DNA of 64,000 nt from Bacteroidales bacterium (GTDB lineage Bacteria; Bacteroidota; Bacteroidia; Bacteroidales; UBA932): the NCBI GenBank assembly GCA_012839605.1, contig DUNA01000078.1, forward strand, positions 1-64,000, written 5' to 3'. The notes beneath the pieces were generated by a model that saw only the letters and a program-made list of their open reading frames with translations, did not search any database and was not told where the DNA came from. Made by a program: the position numbers and the translations under genes. This document shows, in pieces, positions 49,647-60,138 of this stretch (positions are counted from its first letter, which is position 1; each line of letters opens with the position of its first letter).

Positions 49647-50247
49647 AAGCTTCTTTTATATACAACTCTATCGTTTCCCGAATCATGTTTTCTATACCTC
49701 GGCTTGTAATCGTACCTCCGGAAATACCGTCTACTTGGTTGATCGTTCTGGCACCGCCTTTGCCCGGTTGCAACACGCTGATGGACACAAAAGTGCTGTC
49801 CCGGTAAAGCGATTTTCCGCGGAAAGGAGCACTGAACTCTGCCCGAGACACTTCTGCACCCAGCCCGGGCGTCTCGGCTTCGTGGTCAAAATCGACTCCG
49901 TAAATGGTTTGTCCGTTGTCGTCGAGTGCCAAATACCCCCACAAAGGGCCCCAAAGGCCTTTGCCGCTGAGCGGAATTATGAATTTGCGGCTGCCGTCAT
50001 CCAAAGTGCAGATGTACAAAGGCAGCCGTTGCACTCCCACAACCGTATCTTTTATGTATTGTTCATACGATCGGTCTGCCAGATGAACGGCACGTAAAAT
50101 GCTCTGCTGCATTTCTACCTGCTTGTTGGCTTCTTGCCGAGGTTTCAGGATTTGCGACACAAAAGCCAGCAAAGCTGCCGTTATGGTAACCATAATGGCG
50201 GCATATAAGAACGTGTACAAGTCTCCGTTTCTTTTTTTCTTATCCAT
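49624..50247 (-). CDS. nqrC: Na+-translocating NADH:quinone reductase subunit C
   Basis: FMN-attachment region '[18 protein letters not shown]'; start [10 protein letters not shown] preferred. Confidence 0.94.
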
Positions 50248-51472
50248 GTGCGGCAATCCTTTTCATTCTACGTTTAACATGAACGGCTACAACTATATGG
50301 TCAATCAAAGGCGCAAATGTGTTCATGAGCAATATGGCCAACATCATGCCTTCCGGATACCCCGGATTGAACAACCGAACGATGACAGTCATTACGCCAA
50401 TGAGGAAACCGAAAATCCATTTGCCCGTTTCTGTCTGAGCGCTTGTAACCGGGTCTGTAGCCATAAATACGCAACCGAACGCAAACCCTCCCATCACCAA
50501 ATGGTAATGAAACGGTATACCGCCGGCCAACGACATCAGGAACGCTCCGCTTGCACAGGAGAGCATAATTTTCCAGCTGGCTACGCCCGTAAAAATCAAA
50601 ATGGCGGCTCCCAGTAAAATACAAATAACAGACGTTTCCCCAACAGATCCCGGAACCAATCCTATAAAAAGATCTGTCCAAGACGGCAACTCCGGAACGA
50701 CTCCTATGTGGAAGTGAGAAGCCATGCGGGTCCAGATGGATGCATGTTCCGTCAATTGTTCCAGAGGAACAGCCAGACTACTCAGATGTTCTAAAGGAGC
50801 CGTGCCTCCTGTCAACAGGGCTAGGGGAGTGGCTCCGCTGGATCCGTCTATCCAAATGCTTTCTCCGGTCATATATCCGGGATAAGCAAAGAACAAAAAG
50901 GCACGTGCCAACAAAGCCGGATTCCAGATGTTCATGCCGGTCCCTCCAAAAATTTCTTTTCCAATCAACACAGAAAAAGCTACGGCCAAAGCCAACATCC
51001 ACAGAGGAATGGTCACAGGTACTATGAGCGGAATGAGCATGCCCGTTACCAAATACCCTTCGTTCACTTGGTGACCTCGTATTTGTGCAATGGCAAATTC
51101 AATACCCAGCCCCGTTACGTAAGATACGACCAATAATGGGAGTACTTTTAGGAATCCGTACCAGAAAATTTGGAAAAATCCTACTTGAGCTGTTGTCGTT
51201 CCCAAAGCAGTGTAGTATTGCCATCCCGTATTGAACATGCCAAAAAGCAGGCTTGGCACCAATGCAATGACTACTACAATCATGACACGCTTCAGGTCGT
51301 TGGCATCACGTATGTGGGATCCTTTGTCGGTTACCCTGTCCGGTACAAGGAGAAAGGCTTCAAAGGCTTCAAACGTGGAATGCAAGAAAGACAACGGGCC
51401 CCCTTTGCGGAAGGCCGGCGCCATCTTACGCATGAGCTTGTCCGGAAATTGGATAAGGTTGCGAAGCTTCAT
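50240..51472 (-). CDS. nqrB: Na+-translocating NADH:quinone reductase subunit B
   Basis: 'GSSGATPLALL' FMN-Thr motif; multiple TMs; operon order. Confidence 0.96.
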   Translation of the reverse strand: MKLRNLIQFPDKLMRKMAPAFRKGGPLSFLHSTFEAFEAFLLVPDRVTDKGSHIRDANDLKRVMIVVVIALVPSLLFGMFNTGWQYYTALGTTTAQVGFFQIFWYGFLKVLPLLVVSYVTGLGIEFAIAQIRGHQVNEGYLVTGMLIPLIVPVTIPLWMLALAVAFSVLIGKEIFGGTGMNIWNPALLARAFLFFAYPGYMTGESIWIDGSSGATPLALLTGGTAPLEHLSSLAVPLEQLTEHASIWTRMASHFHIGVVPELPSWTDLFIGLVPGSVGETSVICILLGAAILIFTGVASWKIMLSCASGAFLMSLAGGIPFHYHLVMGGFAFGCVFMATDPVTSAQTETGKWIFGFLIGVMTVIVRLFNPGYPEGMMLAILLMNTFAPLIDHIVVAVHVKRRMKRIAAHG

Positions 51473-52836
51473 TGCATTTCCTTTATCATCAGGGCTATCC
51501 CTTGTTGTACAATATCTTGTATATCAATTTTTGACGAACAAATAAATTCGCACAAAGCCAAATCTTCCGGAAGTATTTCATAAATACCCAATTGTTCCAT
51601 CTTCTCTACATCGCCGGCCAAAATGGTTTTGAGCAACTGCGATACCAGAATATCCATGGGCAATACTTTTCTGTAGTCTGCCGTCATCACAAAAGCACGT
51701 TTGTCTCCGTTTGTATTGGTGTCTAGTGCAAAACGCCCCGTTTTCCCCAGCAGGGGTGCTACAAAAGTCAAGTACGTACGGGCTGTACTGAACCGATGCA
51801 AGCGCAGCGGTCTAGCCCAACCGAACAATTCCCTTTTGTTGCCTTCTTCCAGGAAGGTAATGTGTTGGTGGTGAAAACCCAAAAACCCGTCTTCTCCAAT
51901 ATTGTCTCCCGTAAGGGGATTGCCGCTGATGGTACGGATTTCTATATCCTTTTTTCTTGGGAAACCGGTCAGAGAAGCAATGTGCGTTCCAGCCAGGCAT
52001 GGGATGTATCCTGTTTTTTCCAACGCAGGCCCCGTAACGGCTACCATACGTACAGTATCTACCCAACCGTGTAAAAAGAGTTTGCCAACAATTGCCAGTC
52101 CCAGAGGAGTCAATGTCCAGATGATTCTGTTTTTTCCTGCCGGACATACGCGATGTATTTGCACACCGGGATTTCCTGCCGGATGGGGGCCGGTAAAGTA
52201 ATGCTTCTTACCTTTCAGTCGTTCAAATACGCTGTGCTCAGACATCTTGCCCGACAACCCCAAGTGTACGTTTTCCGGACAAAGTCTTTCCATCACACGC
52301 AAGCCCATGGCCAGTGCTTCTTCTTCTGCAGCAAAGGCAAAATCTAGATCGGGAGCCAGTGGCGCCGTATCAAAGCAACTGATATAGATATGCAGAGGTT
52401 GTTCTTCAGGCCTGGCAAGGGTACCGTACGGACGACGTGTTATGAAAGGCCAGCACCCGCTTTCCAATAGCAACTCTTTTATTCTTTCCGGTGAAAGGTT
52501 TTCCGGAATATCTACCGGGAACAAAACTTTCTGATTTTTTCCGTCAGCAGCTATGCGGATGGCAGTCAGTTTTCTTTTTTCTCCACGGACTATTTCTTGT
52601 ACCGTACCGCTTACGGGAGACGTAAATACCATGTGCGGATACGCTTTATTACAAAAGACAGGACTGCCCGCCAATACGGTATCTCCCTCATGTACCAATA
52701 GTTTGGGTACCAAGTGTGGAAAATCGGACGGTTTTAAGGCATACGACGTACAAGTATCCTCGAGGTCCATACGTAACAGGGCTTCTCCTTTCAACGGAAT
52801 GTTCAGTCCTTTTCTTAAGGTAAAATGGCTGCTCAT
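51469..52836 (-). CDS. nqrA: Na+-translocating NADH:quinone reductase subunit A
   Basis: 'LRKGLNIPLKG', 'YFTGPHPAGNPGVQIHRVCPAG'; operon order. Confidence 0.96.
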   Translation of the reverse strand: MSSHFTLRKGLNIPLKGEALLRMDLEDTCTSYALKPSDFPHLVPKLLVHEGDTVLAGSPVFCNKAYPHMVFTSPVSGTVQEIVRGEKRKLTAIRIAADGKNQKVLFPVDIPENLSPERIKELLLESGCWPFITRRPYGTLARPEEQPLHIYISCFDTAPLAPDLDFAFAAEEEALAMGLRVMERLCPENVHLGLSGKMSEHSVFERLKGKKHYFTGPHPAGNPGVQIHRVCPAGKNRIIWTLTPLGLAIVGKLFLHGWVDTVRMVAVTGPALEKTGYIPCLAGTHIASLTGFPRKKDIEIRTISGNPLTGDNIGEDGFLGFHHQHITFLEEGNKRELFGWARPLRLHRFSTARTYLTFVAPLLGKTGRFALDTNTNGDKRAFVMTADYRKVLPMDILVSQLLKTILAGDVEKMEQLGIYEILPEDLALCEFICSSKIDIQDIVQQGIALMIKEMQ

Positions 52837-52855
52837 TTACGATTTTTTGTAGATA

Positions 52856-52863
52856 CAAAGATA
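52856..52863 (-). promoter_or_regulatory. -7 element TATCTTTG upstream of nqrA
   Basis: Plus-strand caaagata, 20 bp before start codon 52836. Confidence 0.55.
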
Positions 52864-52885
52864 AAATTTTCAACGGCTTTTTCCC

Positions 52886-52893
52886 TATATTTG
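52886..52893 (+). promoter_or_regulatory. -7 element TATATTTG upstream of UvrD/PcrA helicase gene
   Basis: Ends 6 bp before ATG 52899. Confidence 0.5.
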
Positions 52894-52898
52894 TCACT

Positions 52899-55622
52899 AT
52901 GAAGGAGAATTTTCTGGAGGAGTTGAACGAAGCTCAAAGACAGGCAGTTGAAAATATCACAGGTCCATCACTCATCATTGCGGGCGCAGGAAGCGGCAAA
53001 ACAAAGGTCTTGACGTGCAGGATTGCGTACCTTTTGCAGCATGGAATTCCGGCTTCTTCCATTTTGGCGCTCACTTTTACCAATAAGGCGGCAAAGGAGA
53101 TGAAAGATCGGTTGGCGGCTATGGTGGAACCGGACTTGGTGCGTTTTTTATGGATGGGTACGTTTCATTCTGTTTTTTCGCGCATTTTAAGAACAGAAGC
53201 AGAGGTGTTGGGTTTCCCAAGAAATTTTACCATTTATGACAAAGCCGACACAAAGGCAGCCATCAAAAAGTGTATCAAAGAATTGCAATTGGATGAAAAA
53301 ACATATCCGCCCGGAGAGGCAGTTTCTCGCATATCGAGGGCTAAAAACAGTTTCTTGACGGCAGAAGGATACCGTAACAACCCTCGGGTGCAGGAAGCAG
53401 ACCAAGCCATGCGGAAATCGCGAATGGTTGATATATACGACCTCTATGCCAAAAGATGTAAATTGTCAGGAGCTATGGATTTTGACGATTTGCTGCTCTA
53501 CACCAATAAGTTGTTGCAGCAATATCCGGAAGTTTTGGAACGTTATAGAGACAGGTTCCGGTACATTTTGGTGGATGAGTATCAGGACACAAATCTGGTA
53601 CAATACCAAATCATAAAAAATTTGGCGCTTGTCCATCGCAACTTGACAGTAGTGGGGGACGATTCACAAAGCATTTACGCCTTCCGTGGCGCCCGCATAG
53701 AGAATATCCTCAATTTCAGCAAAGATTTCCCCGAGGCGGCCGAGTTTCGCTTGGAACAAAATTACCGCTCTACACAAACGGTAGTCAAAGCGGCCAACAG
53801 TTTGATCAGCCACAACAAGCGGCGTTTGCGCAAAGAATGTTTTTCAGAGGCTGCGCAGGGAGAAAAGATAGAACTAATACGGACATATACAGACAAAGAA
53901 GAAGCCTTTATGGTTGTGGGTTCCGTTGTAAACAAGCAGTACGCAACGAGCGATGGCTTTGGAGCATTTGCCATTTTCTACCGTACCAACGCCCAGTCCC
54001 GTTTGTTTGAAGAAGCCCTCCGGCGCAGAAACATTCCCTACAAAGTATATGGAGGCTTTTCTTTTTACGAACGAGCCGAGGTGAAAACTTTGTTGGCATA
54101 CATGCGTTTGGTGGTCAATCCTAATGACCAAGAGGCTTTCATACGTGCCGTGGGCACACCGGCACGCGGCATTGGGACCGTTTCTTTACAGAAACTCAAT
54201 ACGGCAGCTGCTTTTGCCGAGATGTCCTCTTTACGATACATTTTAGAGGGTGACCTTGCAGCCGCCGGTTTGAAAGGCAACATTGCAGGACGGATGAAGG
54301 CTTTTGCAGATATATTGGAAGCCGTCCGCAGCCTGCAGGAAGAAGGTAAAAACGCTTTTGAATTGACTATGGAACTGGCCCGGATGTCCGGCTATTTGGC
54401 GCACCTGAAGGAAGACAAATCCATTGAAGGCATGTCTCGGTTGGCCAACGTGGAAGAACTCTTCAACAGCTTGAAATCGTTTTGTGAAGAGGCCGTCCAG
54501 GACGTAGAACTGGAAACAGAAGTAGCGGCTCCCGAACCGGGAGAAGGAAAGCCCACCTTGGAACGCTTCCTGAACAACGTGACATTACTGACGCAAGCAG
54601 ACGAGGATGATACGCCCGATAAAGAAAAGGTGAGCTTGATGACGGTCCACTCGGCCAAAGGACTGGAATTTTCTCACGTCTACGTTACGGGTATGGAAGA
54701 AAAACTCTTTCCGTTGCTAATGACGTCTAACACGATAGAAGAAGAACTGGAAGAAGAACGCCGTCTGTTTTACGTAGCCATGACGCGCGCCAAAAAGACA
54801 CTCACACTGTCTTATTCCCAAACACGCATGCGCTGGGCAAACATAGAAAACAACCGCCCCAGCCGTTTCTTACAAGAAATCAATCCCGTTTTTCTAGCCC
54901 GATCCTTGCCGGACGATGCCGGCTTCTCAAGTTCGGGAAGCTTTGACCGCGGTAGTCTTGACAGCGGCGGCTTTGGCACCCGGTCTTTTAGCAGCACTTC
55001 CGCTCGTTCTTTCGGCAGAACAGACGCACGTTCCTCTGGCAGCAGAACAGACGCACGTTCCTCTGGCAGCAGGACAGACGCACGTTCCTCTGGCAGCAGG
55101 ACTGACGCTTCTTTTTTTGGCGCGACTTCCGGTCGTTCTTCCGGCAGCTCCGGAAGCGGTTCGCAGTCCGGTTCCCGGTTCGGCTCGCAGCCCGGCTCGC
55201 AGCTCGGCTCGCAGCCCGGCTCCCAGCCCGGTTCTCGGTTCGGCTCCCAGCCCGGCTCCCAGCCCGGTTCTCGGTTCGGCTCCCAGCCCGGCTCTCGGTT
55301 CGGCTCGCAGTCCGGTTCCCGGTTCGGCTCGCAGCCCGGCTCCCAGCCCGATACTCGGTTCGGCTCTCAGTACGACATGCAGCCTCGCTCCCGATCCGGC
55401 TCACCCCGTTCGTCTGCCCCCTCGGCCGGTGACGACTTTGTCCCTTCCGATCCCGGCAGCCTTGCGGTGGGCATGACCATTGAACACAACCGCTTTGGTC
55501 GAGGCCACATCATTTCTATGGAAGGCGACATGCCCAACACAAAAGCCGTCATCGACTTTGCCTCGGGAGGCGTCAAAACCTTGTTGCTCAAATTTGCCCG
55601 GATACGCATAGTAGAGGAGTAG
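52899..55622 (+). CDS. UvrD/PcrA family DNA helicase with long repetitive Ser/Gly/Gln/Arg linker and C-terminal Tudor-like domain
   Basis: 'LNEAQRQAVENITGPSLIIAGAGSGKTKVLTCRIAYLL', 'DFDDLLLYTNKLL', 'LVDEYQDTN', 'MTVHSAKGLEFSHVYVTGMEE', 'RRLFYVAMTRAKKTLTL'; C-terminus 'LAVGMTIEHNRFGRGHIISMEG'. Confidence 0.95.
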   Translation: MKENFLEELNEAQRQAVENITGPSLIIAGAGSGKTKVLTCRIAYLLQHGIPASSILALTFTNKAAKEMKDRLAAMVEPDLVRFLWMGTFHSVFSRILRTEAEVLGFPRNFTIYDKADTKAAIKKCIKELQLDEKTYPPGEAVSRISRAKNSFLTAEGYRNNPRVQEADQAMRKSRMVDIYDLYAKRCKLSGAMDFDDLLLYTNKLLQQYPEVLERYRDRFRYILVDEYQDTNLVQYQIIKNLALVHRNLTVVGDDSQSIYAFRGARIENILNFSKDFPEAAEFRLEQNYRSTQTVVKAANSLISHNKRRLRKECFSEAAQGEKIELIRTYTDKEEAFMVVGSVVNKQYATSDGFGAFAIFYRTNAQSRLFEEALRRRNIPYKVYGGFSFYERAEVKTLLAYMRLVVNPNDQEAFIRAVGTPARGIGTVSLQKLNTAAAFAEMSSLRYILEGDLAAAGLKGNIAGRMKAFADILEAVRSLQEEGKNAFELTMELARMSGYLAHLKEDKSIEGMSRLANVEELFNSLKSFCEEAVQDVELETEVAAPEPGEGKPTLERFLNNVTLLTQADEDDTPDKEKVSLMTVHSAKGLEFSHVYVTGMEEKLFPLLMTSNTIEEELEEERRLFYVAMTRAKKTLTLSYSQTRMRWANIENNRPSRFLQEINPVFLARSLPDDAGFSSSGSFDRGSLDSGGFGTRSFSSTSARSFGRTDARSSGSRTDARSSGSRTDARSSGSRTDASFFGATSGRSSGSSGSGSQSGSRFGSQPGSQLGSQPGSQPGSRFGSQPGSQPGSRFGSQPGSRFGSQSGSRFGSQPGSQPDTRFGSQYDMQPRSRSGSPRSSAPSAGDDFVPSDPGSLAVGMTIEHNRFGRGHIISMEGDMPNTKAVIDFASGGVKTLLLKFARIRIVEE
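55017..55109 (+). repeat. 27-bp in-frame tandem repeat (about 3.4 copies; RTDARSSGS)
   Basis: agaacagacgcacgttcctctggcagc at 55017, 55044 and 55071 (one substitution in the third), partial fourth copy. Confidence 0.95.
55158..55370 (+). repeat. 12/24/36-bp in-frame tandem repeat (GSQP / GSRF units)
   Basis: Repeated ggctcgcagcccggctcccagcccggttctcggttc pattern. Confidence 0.92.
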
Positions 55623-55651
55623 CTCTGTTTTCGGCTGTATCTTTTTTTGCC

Positions 55652-55746
55652 GAGGGTAATAAGTGCCATGTGATAGCGTAGTGGTGCAACTATCAGATAG
55701 ATAGTCTGTTACTATCTTTACTGGAAAACCGCTACTTACTACCCTC
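55652..55746. repeat. 95-bp intergenic repeat element, copy 1
   Basis: gagggtaataagtg ... acttactaccctc inverted termini. Confidence 0.88.
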
Positions 55747-55778
55747 CCTGAAAAACGTGAAAAACAGCTCTTTTGACC

Positions 55779-55873
55779 GAGGGTAGTAAGTGCCAAGAAA
55801 TGGCATATTGTTGTAAGCTGCTGTATGTCTGCGATTTAACGTCTTTGCTTGAAAGAGAGGACTTACTACCCTC
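55779..55873. repeat. 95-bp intergenic repeat element, copy 2
   Basis: gagggtagtaagtg ... acttactaccctc; 127 bp from copy 1 start. Confidence 0.9.
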
Positions 55874-55906
55874 CCTGAAAAACCGCGAAAAACAGCTCTT
55901 TTGACC

Positions 55907-56001
55907 GAGGGTAGTAAGTGCAATGCAATGGTGTAGTGTTGCAATAGCCCGATAGACAGCCCGTTAATATCTGCACCTGAAAACCGCCACTTATTACCCT
56001 C
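55907..56001. repeat. 95-bp intergenic repeat element, copy 3
   Basis: gagggtagtaagtg ... cacttattaccctc; 128 bp from copy 2 start. Confidence 0.9.
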
Positions 56002-56054
56002 TGAGGAAAGCAGTGCCAACGATATTTTGACACAATTAGATGCGTGGCTTGCTT

Positions 56055-56149
56055 AAGGGTAGCGAATCCCATAATGGGATGTGTTGATACAATTTACTGG
56101 AAACCTGTGTGTTAAAGTCTCGGCAGTAAAGCTGCTACTCACTATCCTT
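56055..56149. repeat. 95-bp intergenic repeat element, diverged copy 4
   Basis: aagggtagcgaat ... actcactatcctt; same 95-bp length, internal gtta(a) at the same offset. Confidence 0.6.
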
Positions 56150-56243
56150 CGGAAGGACCGGCGGACTTCAATGGAATACGTCAGTCGTTGTTGATTACGC
56201 AAAAGCGGCGGATCTCGCCATTTTCCCGCCAAAAATGAGAAAT

Positions 56244-56285
56244 GAAAAAAGCCAATTAGCTGTTTATTAGCTGATTGGCTCTTTT
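56244..56285 (-). terminator. terminator downstream of tRNA-Asp
   Basis: Minus strand AGCCAATCAGCT-AATAAAC-AGCTAATTGGCT followed by TTTTT; one stem mismatch. Confidence 0.8.
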
Positions 56286-56290
56286 CTGGG

Positions 56291-56365
56291 CGGTCCGGAC
56301 GGGACTCGAACCCGCGACCCCGTGCGTGACAGGCACGTATTCTAACCAAACTGAACTACCGGACC
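56291..56365 (-). tRNA. tRNA-Asp (GTC)
   Basis: Minus strand GGTCCGGTAGTTCAGTTTGGTTAGAATACGTGCCTGTCACGCACGGGGTCGCGGGTTCGAGTCCCGTCCGGACCG; 7-bp acceptor stem, anticodon GTC; CCA not encoded. Confidence 0.96.
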
Positions 56366-56938
56366 TTATTTGTTTGGGAGTGCAAATGTAGGTAATGTTT
56401 TTGAAACTGCAAAAAAACTAAAATGTACTTGACCGTATTTTTTTGTTTTTTCAAAACCGGGAATGTGGTCAAATGTATATTGTCCGGGATGTTCTACCAC
56501 CAACAATCCGTTTTCTTCTAAAATATCTGCTTGTAAAATCTTGATGGGCAGTTCTTCCAGACCCGGTAGGTCGTATGGTGGGTCGGCAAATACAAAATGA
56601 AATTTTTGGGTACAGATTTTTAAGAAATCAAACACGTTGTTGCGTACTACCCGTATGTATGAGGAGATACCTAATGCTTTGGCTGTTGCGTCTATAAAGC
56701 GTGTGTGGATGGGATTCATTTCTACACAGTGTACAGACGTGCAGCCTCTGGAAATGCATTCAAAAGCAATGTTTCCGCTTCCGGAAAACAAATCCAATAC
56801 GACAGTTGTTTCCAGGTCAAGGGTATTTTCCAGGATATTGAAAAGGCCTTCCTTGGCAAAATCCGTGGTAGGATGTGCCTGGAAATTTTTGGGAGGCGTG
56901 ATGGCGCGTCCTTTTAAAAACCCACTGATAATGCGCAT
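56366..56938 (-). CDS. rsmD: 16S rRNA (guanine(966)-N(2))-methyltransferase RsmD
   Basis: 'MRIISGFLKGRAITPP...HPTTDFAKEGLFNIL', 'VLDLFSGSGNIAFECISRG', 'FVFADPPYDL'. Confidence 0.93.
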   Translation of the reverse strand: MRIISGFLKGRAITPPKNFQAHPTTDFAKEGLFNILENTLDLETTVVLDLFSGSGNIAFECISRGCTSVHCVEMNPIHTRFIDATAKALGISSYIRVVRNNVFDFLKICTQKFHFVFADPPYDLPGLEELPIKILQADILEENGLLVVEHPGQYTFDHIPGFEKTKKYGQVHFSFFAVSKTLPTFALPNK

Positions 56939-57028
56939 GGTGAGAAATTTTTATGTTGTAGTATAATACCGAAAAACTGGGAGATTGGTAAAATAAGGAA
57001 GCTGGCAAAACAGGAAGGTGGAGATTGG

Positions 57029-57835
57029 TTATTGGCTATGTACCCGGAAAAAGTGTGCACCAAATTGCAAGTTCATAGATTCTGTAGGCAGTGTGTGGTT
57101 TTCTGCAGTAGCAACGGTGACGGAAGAGAAGAACGTGCAAAGTTGTTTCATGTGCAGCGGCTTGAGCGGACCGGTAATGTACAGGCTTAGGCTCTTTGGA
57201 TTCAATTGCCATTGTTTGAGGGCAAAGAACAAGAAGTACATAGCCGTTTTGAAACGGTCTATAGCGTATGCATTGCAGAGCAACAGTCGCTCACCCTGCA
57301 TGAGAATGAGGTTGACGTGGGTAGGTGTGTAATGCATGAGTGCACGTGAGTATTCCTTTTGCTCCATAATAAAACGAAGTAGTGGAATGACGCTTACGTA
57401 AAACTTGGCTTTGTGTTGATACTTGGCCACCATGGCATTGACGGGAGCCGGTAGCGCATAGATGAAAGTAGCGTCCAGCGGTTGGACGGTAGTATAATTG
57501 ACTTCGTCCAAATAGGCTACATCAAACAATTGGTTTAGCACTTCTATGGCTTGTTCGGGCTTGAAAAGCGATGTGGGAACGAGTGTGTATTTGTGTGTAT
57601 CAATCATGACGCTACAACGGCTAAAGCGCTTTTGCAACATCTCTTCTTGTTTGATGATGTGCCCCACTTCTTTGGCCCATTCGTTGTAATCGTTGGCAGG
57701 AAAAGCATACGAATGGTTTCTACAAAGAAGGCAATCGTTGTTTGCTGTGTCTTCCACAACAAAAGAAAGTCCATTCACACCAATATGAATGGACAATCTG
57801 TGGTGAGCCTGCGGTATTTTGATGTGCGCAGACAT
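57029..57835 (-). CDS. DUF3822 family protein
   Basis: 'RLSIHIGVNGLSFVVEDT...', 268 aa, adjacent to rsmD. Confidence 0.75.
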   Translation of the reverse strand: MSAHIKIPQAHHRLSIHIGVNGLSFVVEDTANNDCLLCRNHSYAFPANDYNEWAKEVGHIIKQEEMLQKRFSRCSVMIDTHKYTLVPTSLFKPEQAIEVLNQLFDVAYLDEVNYTTVQPLDATFIYALPAPVNAMVAKYQHKAKFYVSVIPLLRFIMEQKEYSRALMHYTPTHVNLILMQGERLLLCNAYAIDRFKTAMYFLFFALKQWQLNPKSLSLYITGPLKPLHMKQLCTFFSSVTVATAENHTLPTESMNLQFGAHFFRVHSQ

Positions 57836-57839
57836 GTTT

Positions 57840-58442
57840 CTATTCCCAGTTCCCCGCGTTGTTGTTGGGTTGATCTATGCTACCCACCTTCAAGCCGGGA
57901 TACCTGTTGGTAATGTTGCGGTCTTCGTTCAGGTTTACAATTAATTGGCGTTCCAGTCCTTTTAGGAGTATGTCAAAAGGAGTACATGCTTCAAACAGCG
58001 GGACATCCACACCGGATACTTTCTTTATGACGGCTCTCATTTCAAATTCTTCTCCGACCAAAGGAACCCATCTGAGAGAATCTATGCTGAAACCGGGACG
58101 TTTAAGTAGCGTATCTTTTACAGCCATTTCCATACTATCACGGAATACACGGCCTTGGGCTACGGCTAGGGAGTCGTCAAACGAGCCAATTTGTCTGATA
58201 ATGGTAATGTACCCTTCATTGTAAAATTGTTCCAGGGTATCAAAACTGTCAGTGTATTCGCCGTATTCTGTTTTGTAAGAAGTTTGCAGCACACGGATGT
58301 CTTTTAATCTATCAATGGCCAGATGCTGACGGTGTTCGCGTTCTTTTTGGAACTTGATGGGTGCTGTCAGACTTCTGATAATAAAGAAGCCCAGAACAAG
58401 AATAATCAAGGGCAGCACTACAATGGTAAAAATCTTTTTCAT
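57840..58442 (-). CDS. membrane-anchored protein of unknown function
   Basis: MKKIFTIVVLPLIILVLGFFIIRSLTAPIKFQKEREHRQHLAIDRLKDIRVLQTSYKTEYGEYTDSFDTL; start moved from 58517 to 58442. Confidence 0.7.
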   Translation of the reverse strand: MKKIFTIVVLPLIILVLGFFIIRSLTAPIKFQKEREHRQHLAIDRLKDIRVLQTSYKTEYGEYTDSFDTLEQFYNEGYITIIRQIGSFDDSLAVAQGRVFRDSMEMAVKDTLLKRPGFSIDSLRWVPLVGEEFEMRAVIKKVSGVDVPLFEACTPFDILLKGLERQLIVNLNEDRNITNRYPGLKVGSIDQPNNNAGNWE

Positions 58443-58517
58443 TATTGAATTATTAATACAGTCAAATGAGGAGTCCTGCAAAATTAGGAAAAAAAATAAA
58501 GCTTGCAATAAAACCAT

Positions 58518-58525
58518 TATATTTG
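58518..58525 (+). promoter_or_regulatory. -7 element TATATTTG upstream of DHH phosphoesterase gene
   Basis: TAnnTTTG, 16 bp before ATG 58542. Confidence 0.5.
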
Positions 58526-58541
58526 CATCAATATCTTTTGT

Positions 58542-59576
58542 ATGGAGTGTCTTTTTTCAGAGAGTTTAATAGAAAAATGGGTAGAAAACCTTGCCCATCC
58601 CAAAAATATAGTCATAGCTACCCATATTAACCCGGATGGTGATGCCATTGGATCTTTAGTAGGTCTGGGGTTGTATTTAAAGAAACGAGGGCATCACGTA
58701 ACGCTTGCTTGTCCTACTCCGTATCCTGATTTTTTGTCTTTTCTGGATCCTCATAAGAAGATTTTAGTTTACGTTTGGCAAGAAGAAGCTGTAGTTGAGG
58801 CAGTAGAACAGGCAGATTTGTTGATTGCAGTAGATGTGAGCAGTTTTTCCAGGATGGAGATGATGGGACCGCTTATGATGGAGTCAAACGCTTTTAAAAT
58901 CTTGATTGACCATCATATAGATCCGGTAGAGCAAGAGTTTGACTTGGTGTTGTCTTCTACAAAGGTAAGCTCTACTGCAGAACTGATATATAGGATTTTG
59001 GATTGTTGGGGTCCTCGTGTGAATTTGTCAAGAGAACAAGCTACGGCTTTGCTTACTGGCATTGTAACAGATACAAACCAGTTTTCCAACAGTGTGTTTC
59101 CAAGTACCTTTGAAGTAGCTTCTGTTTTGAAAGCCAGCGAAGCCGATATGGAAAAAATAGTGGCCAAGGTGTACCGTGATTTCAGTATTAACAGGTTGCA
59201 GTTGATGGGATATGCCCTTCAAAACATAAAAATTTTGCCGGAATATAAGACAGGATATATTGTACTTACACAAGATGTTTTGGAAGAGTATGGGTATAGG
59301 ATTGGTGATGCAGAAGGTTTTGTGAATTTCCCATTGACTATTGGAGGAATACTGGTGTCGGCATTTTTCCTGCAAAGAGAAGATCATATAAAAGTGTCTT
59401 TGCGTTCCAGAGGGGGGATAGCAGTAAATGAAATAGCAAAGACTTTTTTTAATGGAGGAGGCCATTTTAACGCTTCTGCCGGAAAAATGGAAAACATACC
59501 GGAACGCATAGAGGAGCGCTTGGTAGAAGCTTTGGGCACAATAATTGTATCTACTGAAACGCCGGAAAAGGAATAA
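58542..59576 (+). CDS. DHH/DHHA1 phosphoesterase, NrnA-like
   Basis: 'VIATHINPDGDAIGSLVGLGLYL', 'ILIDHHIDP', 'GIVTDTNQFSN', 'FFNGGGHFNASAGKM'. Confidence 0.93.
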   Translation: MECLFSESLIEKWVENLAHPKNIVIATHINPDGDAIGSLVGLGLYLKKRGHHVTLACPTPYPDFLSFLDPHKKILVYVWQEEAVVEAVEQADLLIAVDVSSFSRMEMMGPLMMESNAFKILIDHHIDPVEQEFDLVLSSTKVSSTAELIYRILDCWGPRVNLSREQATALLTGIVTDTNQFSNSVFPSTFEVASVLKASEADMEKIVAKVYRDFSINRLQLMGYALQNIKILPEYKTGYIVLTQDVLEEYGYRIGDAEGFVNFPLTIGGILVSAFFLQREDHIKVSLRSRGGIAVNEIAKTFFNGGGHFNASAGKMENIPERIEERLVEALGTIIVSTETPEKE

Positions 59577-59586
59577 AAAAATAAGC

Positions 59587-60138
59587 ATGAGATTTTTCCC
59601 CCTGCTGTTGTTAGTTGTTTTAATGAGCCTGTCTTCATGTGCAAAAGAAGACAGGAAACTGATGATTATCAAACAGGAAGAAGAGATAGACCGTTATGTG
59701 CAATCTTTAACTTGCGACACGGTACTCTATAGAAACGGAGTCGTAAGGGCTGTTTTTGAACAAGGAAAACCGTCTTTTGCCGGAGATACGGTAGCCAAAG
59801 GAGATACGCTGTTTTTTTATTATGCCGGTCACATCTTTTCAAGAGGAAAAGGCACCTTGTTTCATACGAATTCAGATAGTGTGGCGGCCGCTCACAACAG
59901 GGTATTGCCGGAAGACCAGGCTCGCGTACGTTCAGACGTTGTTGGCTCCGGCCGGTTCCTGAAAGGGTTGGAATTCGGATTTCCGGGGATGGCTTCCGGT
60001 GAACACTCGTACCTTATTTTTAACGCAGATCTGGGCTTTGGCAATACAAGTGCCGGGCAGATACCGGCCATGTCTCCTTTATTATTTGAGGTGTGGGTTG
60101 TGAAGGTTGTAAAAAATCAAATATCTTTGTCCCAATGA
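59587..60138 (+). CDS. FKBP-type peptidyl-prolyl isomerase lipoprotein (GldI-like)
   Basis: Lipobox 'VLMSLSSCAKE'; 'GRFLKGLEFGFPGMASGEHSYLIFNADLGFGNTSAGQIPAMSPLLFEVWVVKV'. Confidence 0.85.
   Translation: MRFFPLLLLVVLMSLSSCAKEDRKLMIIKQEEEIDRYVQSLTCDTVLYRNGVVRAVFEQGKPSFAGDTVAKGDTLFFYYAGHIFSRGKGTLFHTNSDSVAAAHNRVLPEDQARVRSDVVGSGRFLKGLEFGFPGMASGEHSYLIFNADLGFGNTSAGQIPAMSPLLFEVWVVKVVKNQISLSQ

Follow-up and report, generated by a model that had tools for sequence, protein, structure and literature searches.

REPIN/RAYT systems have been studied best in Pseudomonas and enterobacteria, and to our knowledge the reading of a target by a RAYT is understood only for GTAG-tagged hairpins. REPINs have inverted ends and a middle in which length and the ability to form a hairpin are what matters, form tandem clusters, and lie adjacent to a cognate RAYT gene (PMC3116915). 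Among the TnpA_REP proteins of Bacteroidetes, the REPs accompanying subclass 2.4 have a "double foot", one end carrying GT[AG]G and the opposite end C[TC]AC, and those of subclass 2.6 are described as having "atypical secondary structures" (PMC6006769). TIRYT/TIRtron systems consist of RAYT-like genes flanked by non-GTAG inverted repeats, and some of these repeats belong to families of moderate abundance (PMC3733652). Within the Bacteroidales, the BrickBuilt element of Porphyromonas gingivalis combines inverted ends with tandem repetition and is described as a MITE with a minisatellite inside (PMC4596501).

The window analysed here is a 64,000-nucleotide stretch of a Bacteroidales genome (contig DUNA01000078.1). 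It holds four gapless 95-bp units, three with near-perfect inverted ends. All four had been located beforehand by a reading of the sequence alone (the original prediction), and all are present:

52899 to 55622, plus strand: UvrD/PcrA-type helicase, flanking gene, for context only
55652 to 55746, plus strand: unit 1, a 95-bp dyad element with arms at 55652-55665 and 55733-55746
55687 to 55711, plus strand: core of unit 1 (CAACTATCAGATAGATAGTCTGTTA), near-consensus
55747 to 55778, plus strand: linker 1-2, 32 bp, with phased A-tracts (CCTGAAAAACGTGAAAAACAGCTCTTTTGACC)
55779 to 55873, plus strand: unit 2, 95 bp, with an exact core (TAAGCTGCTGTATGTCTGCGATTTA) at 55814-55838
55874 to 55906, plus strand: linker 2-3, 33 bp, with phased A-tracts
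55907 to 56001, plus strand: unit 3, 95 bp, with a near-consensus core (CAATAGCCCGATAGACAGCCCGTTA) at 55942-55966
56002 to 56054, no strand: 53-bp stretch from unit 3 to unit 4, not a normal linker, between the host-specific array and the older unit 4
56055 to 56149, plus strand: unit 4, 95 bp, with decayed arms and an exact core (CAATTTACTGGAAACCTGTGTGTTA) at 56090-56114
56289 to 56365, minus strand: tRNA-Asp (GTC), flanking gene, for context only
56366 to 56938, minus strand: RsmD-like methyltransferase, flanking gene, for context only

The names of the helicase and of the rsmD-like gene are those we presume from recognising their sequences, not from a family search. At 54980-55400 the helicase has a long low-complexity insert before its conserved C-terminal domain, made of GRTDARSSGS repeats and then SGSQPGSRFGSQ; orthologous helicase open frames in relatives vary in length (810-925 aa).

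A repeat search placed copies 1-3 in one ungapped family, in which the other two are 64% and 76% identical to copy 1 across 106 nt, and found their inverted ends as 14-21-nt arms that are 86-100% complementary. The arms of copy 4 have decayed (AAGGGTAGCGAAT / ACTCACTATCCTT), in keeping with the prediction, which had limited the inverted ends to copies 1-3. The two linkers within the array are near-identical, as predicted, and the array has a regular period of 127-128 bp in which linker-plus-ends are conserved and the middle is more variable. Scored with a covariance model trained on host units, the window copies reach 66-89 bits, far beyond chance, the window copies themselves being among the training rows.

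A search for copies elsewhere, proposed in the original prediction, was productive. DNA searches of the host genome revealed ten further contigs with tandem arrays of this unit, and the host carries at least 50 units at no fewer than 20 mostly intergenic places, of which 38 units align at 95 bp almost without gaps. These copy numbers are lower bounds, since contigs C62, C25, C65 and C58 of the host assembly terminate in or close to arrays. The covariance model found elements in 10 of 13 genomes from this genus of uncultured Bacteroidales, and a sample of 150 genomes from the family showed them in no other genus; copy number differs greatly between species. Named records bearing copies are Bacteroidales MAGs (UBA5433, ADurb.Bin139 and AS18jrsBPVS_13), as is a further record labelled Petrimonas sp. 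AS05jafATM_30. Viral contigs gave no match to the elements. Pattern matches in three other records (L048, L052 and L053, two of them labelled Opitutus and Rariglobus) were rejected as GTAGCGA simple repeats with a chance resemblance. Because of the host's many units and the genus-wide copies, the window repeats are not a local relic, and the view that they are no recent simple tandem duplication was upheld.

Across eight genomes, 172 units span 93-98 bp and are overwhelmingly 95 bp (host and G009) or 97 bp (others) in length. Simple ORF calling placed 74 of 82 arrays or singles between genes; where both neighbours of such intergenic places were visible, 31 were tandem, 20 convergent and 6 divergent. 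REPs have also been reported chiefly downstream of genes (PMC3733652). Single units without linkers account for 26 of the 82 places.

Each unit is a dyad composed of lineage-specific arms and a central core. The interiors had been described as diverged, and the middle is indeed less conserved; it has not simply drifted, since the interiors have a conserved dyad core in common. Conservation inside the units is highest in columns arranged as a dyad about a central W, and the commonest form of the core is YAA-N4-CWG-N2-W-N2-CWG-N4-TTR. This 25-mer pattern occurs at 26 exact places in the 1.65-Mb host genome (reversed control, 0), a few of which, away from recognised units, may be due to chance. 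The N4 spacers flanking the core CWG lack complementarity, as would be expected of a site read by a dimer. In the consensus of the aligned units only the arms pair (RNAalifold), with no interior stems beyond them. Neither half forms a 20-40-nt REP hairpin with a 5' GT[AG]G foot, the long-range arms alone being paired, and GTAG or GTGG sits inside the arm. The motif GGGGWSAS is absent from the flanking repeats, whose arms are GGGTARTAAGT, GCGCGCCA and others.

Compensatory changes, named beforehand as the sign of selected stems, are seen between the arms of subfamilies (GTAGTAAGT/ACTTACTAC, GTAGTGAGT/ACTCACTAC and GTAGGAAGT/ACTTCCTAC), but they fit equally well a dimer reading two half-sites. 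Compared with shuffled arms from the same genome, within-element matching was significant in G007 (p 0.0005) and G000, the host (p 0.05), and not in the other genomes. Since so few genomes gave a significant result, arm covariation arises mainly between subfamilies.

A search with Pfam Y1_Tnp led to RAYT-like open reading frames, and a profile built from these found further ones. The proteins, about 280-340 aa long, match Y1_Tnp and NCBIfam REP_Tyr_transpos (NF047646), with scores in the latter of 21.6-35.5 bits, far under the curated cut-off of 80. The HxH, Tyr and Asn (Y...N) are invariant in 11 aligned proteins, within SNH[FY]H and YV[LI][RK]N[SAG]; the W[EQ] motif is missing at the aligned place, as is the NP of the usual YxxNP (compare PMC6006769). 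A PDB profile search with the proteins gave no significant match, and a single-sequence AlphaFold model was unusable (mean pLDDT 34.7).

One lineage of these genes, with SNHFH and YV[LI][RK]N[AG]VHH, matches the elements described here. All seven intact genes of this lineage (G000 C62, G001, G004, G007, G008, G009 C15 and G012) have elements within about 250 bp, on both sides in G009 and G007. Chance adjacency is roughly estimated at about 2% per gene (some 20-30 places, 1.65 Mb and a 1.4-kb interval), with the cases partly dependent through orthology between genomes. A truncated gene in G009 C25 has no element beside it. The host also carries a decayed second gene of the lineage (G000:C40:7199-7786) with one in-frame TAG and an element 14 bp from the match. 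Elements are scarce or lacking in the genomes without the lineage (G011, G002, G003, G005 and G006), with the exception of G010, which has 97-bp elements, yet no matching-lineage gene was found there; perhaps its elements are a population that has outlived its own transposase.

Genes of other RAYT-like lineages also lie between dyads, which measure about 83-113 bp and have arms of other sequences (TAGCGCGCCA, GGTGCGCAA, ACCGCGCAA, CGTGAGCCA and TTCTGCGCCA). The centres of these dyads look related, often with CTG-N5-CAG, and the exact 25-mer core pattern was not found beside the other-lineage genes. A second RAYT-like gene of the host (C64:11275-12117) lies between dyads at C64:11159-11236 and C64:12150-12228 with TTGCGCACC-type arms. 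The TGCGCMA family, two members of which bracket this gene, is dispersed over 11 places in the host (control, 1), and a member beside the array on C5 has the exact core (C5:16729-16753).

Adjacent units in the 172-unit set are separated by linkers of 22-23 bp (21 cases) or 32-34 bp (68 cases) in 89 of 90 instances, the sole exception being the 53 bp between window copies 3 and 4. The classes differ by about one helical turn, and the A-tracts, roughly 10 bp apart, number about two in short linkers and three in long ones; linker sequences have diverged and their lengths have been kept. We infer that the two classes reflect DNA bending or phasing, and they could also descend from two ancestral linkers. 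Unit identity is 75% within arrays and 62% between arrays of one genome, and 45 of 146 units have an array-mate as their nearest relative, where about 1.2% would be expected at random; arrays therefore grow or homogenise locally. Just before an array on G000:C1 (L024, about 1330-1460), linker-like repeats (..CCCCTTTTGCC..) stand in a row with no units, possibly as scars of excised units. Direct repeats flank two other arrays: those at L021 6525-7381 (G000:C34) measure roughly 50 bp and come from the 3' end of a gene, and those at L023 4324-4672 (G000:C5) measure roughly 35 bp and come from part of an other-family dyad. No target duplication was found at the window array, and no clean empty site with one was read.

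The history of the window locus can be read from two relatives. G009 (C18) and G007 (C24) each have a single element beside the same tRNA-Asp and rsmD-like gene, orthologous to window copy 4, and the flank of the G009 element (GCGTATTCCGTTGCAGTTCCGCCG) matches that of copy 4. In G009 the helicase gene is on the far side of the element with two other open reading frames between. Copies 1-3 are absent at this locus from both genomes. Copy 4 is thus the older resident, and copies 1-3, found in the host only, are most likely a host-specific gain. A local duplication, named in the original prediction as the alternative, holds in part for the array of copies 1-3, which lies beside the older, inherited copy 4.

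The elements resemble the REPINs of Pseudomonas fluorescens SBW25 in their inverted ends, less conserved middle of kept length (71/110 bp there), mostly extragenic position, distinct types each near its own RAYT gene, and tandem clusters that include flanking sequence (PMC3116915). They differ in their length of 95/97 bp, in having no GTAG-footed REP hairpin per half, in the central dyad core and in the two phased-A-tract linker classes, and they belong to another phylum and another RAYT lineage. They share with TnpA_REP 2.4/2.6 the pairing of RAYT-like genes with flanking repeats that recur at other sites in the genome; the 2.4 and 2.6 proteins carry NH[LIV]H or NH[IFV]H motifs together with WQ and YIxxNP, their median lengths being 194 and 179 aa (PMC6006769), in contrast to the longer present proteins with their SNH[FY]H, no aligned W[EQ] and YV[LI][RK]N[SAG]. 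Unlike TIRYT/TIRtron repeats (PMC3733652), each flank is a complete dyad and not one arm of a gene-spanning pair, and GGGGWSAS does not occur. Compared with BrickBuilt (PMC4596501), the repetition here is of whole dyads and linkers, with linkage to RAYT-like genes. We set the elements apart from plain REPIN/RAYT members because they depart from the strict REP definition and the proteins lack the subclass signatures of PMC6006769.

We conclude that the repeats are probably non-autonomous REPIN-like elements whose copies depend, or depended, on a RAYT-like HuH/Y1 transposase encoded elsewhere in the genome (probability roughly 0.7). The fixed length, the copies across genome and genus and the flanked RAYT-like genes bear out the earlier proposal of a REP/MITE-like element selected for end recognition. 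Recognition, cleavage, mobility and bending are proposed from these patterns. The unit is a 95/97-bp dyad in which 11-14-bp arms specific to one RAYT lineage enclose a core shared, in looser form, with elements of other lineages. When the element is single-stranded, for instance on the lagging strand, the arms would close a long hairpin; the cognate RAYT would read arms and core, and its HuH histidines and tyrosine would nick and rejoin the DNA, which would allow the excision, copying or insertion of elements between genes. Tandem duplication of a unit plus linker would enlarge arrays such as window copies 1-3, and phased A-tract linkers probably hold neighbouring units in register along the curved duplex. 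Counted against the REPIN-like reading are the absence of any observed movement or clean empty site with a target duplication, the low REP_Tyr_transpos scores, the missing W[EQ] and NP, the lack of a matching gene in G010, and the failure of a purely single-strand hairpin model to predict two linker classes.

Two neighbouring explanations give the linkers an architectural role. One retains the RAYT-like system and makes the elements duplex-DNA architecture, in which related core, lineage-specific arms and phased linkers would build curved arrays for a domesticated HuH protein or a partner; we regard this as a possibility of low probability. The other, which we think unlikely, regards the units as duplex sites bound by a protein dimer, either a domesticated RAYT or a protein of the nucleoid type, with phased A-tract linkers that would curve the DNA and organise or insulate the chromosome, mobility being no longer the point. 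Two linker classes that differ by a helical turn and carry phased A-tracts, a dyad core with non-complementary spacers, and a tightly fixed unit length all agree with such sites, but many units stand single and without linkers, the element type is tightly tied to RAYT-like genes, copy number varies greatly between species, and descent from two ancestral linkers could account for the classes.

A structured RNA had also been suggested and was not supported; we consider it very improbable, also in the form of a regulatory RNA whose tandem hairpins would act at transcript 3' ends. Units 1-3 fold better than shuffled sequences on either strand (z -2.5 to -5.0) and convergent-gene places outnumber divergent ones, but it is the arms, the only paired part of the consensus, that supply this stability, tandem places are the commonest, and the covariance model matches the near-dyad on both strands. 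An Rfam scan of 50000-60000 returned a tRNA as its sole credible match. Short, non-coding, dispersed elements with inverted ends could also be ordinary MITEs, derived from an insertion sequence of the DD(E/D) type that has GAGGGTAGTAAGTG as its terminal inverted repeats; the neighbouring genes are HuH/Tyr RAYT-like instead of DD(E/D), conservation extends to an internal core, and the window array lacks a target duplication, which makes this origin more improbable still. The regular period with its variable middle, and the likeness of units to their array-mates, recall a CRISPR-like array or a plain, decaying local tandem repeat. Here the interiors are homologous around a conserved core and are not unrelated spacers, and single units exist; both forms of this scarcely credible explanation were ruled out by the shared core and the genus-wide copies.

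The coexistence in another phylum of several RAYT-like lineages, whose element families have differing arms and a related core, makes it possible to test directly what sets specificity. The two linker classes and their phased A-tracts hint at a role for duplex geometry in the arrays, where a single-strand hairpin model predicts no such classes. If the architectural reading were true, a transposase family would be coupled to chromosome organisation.
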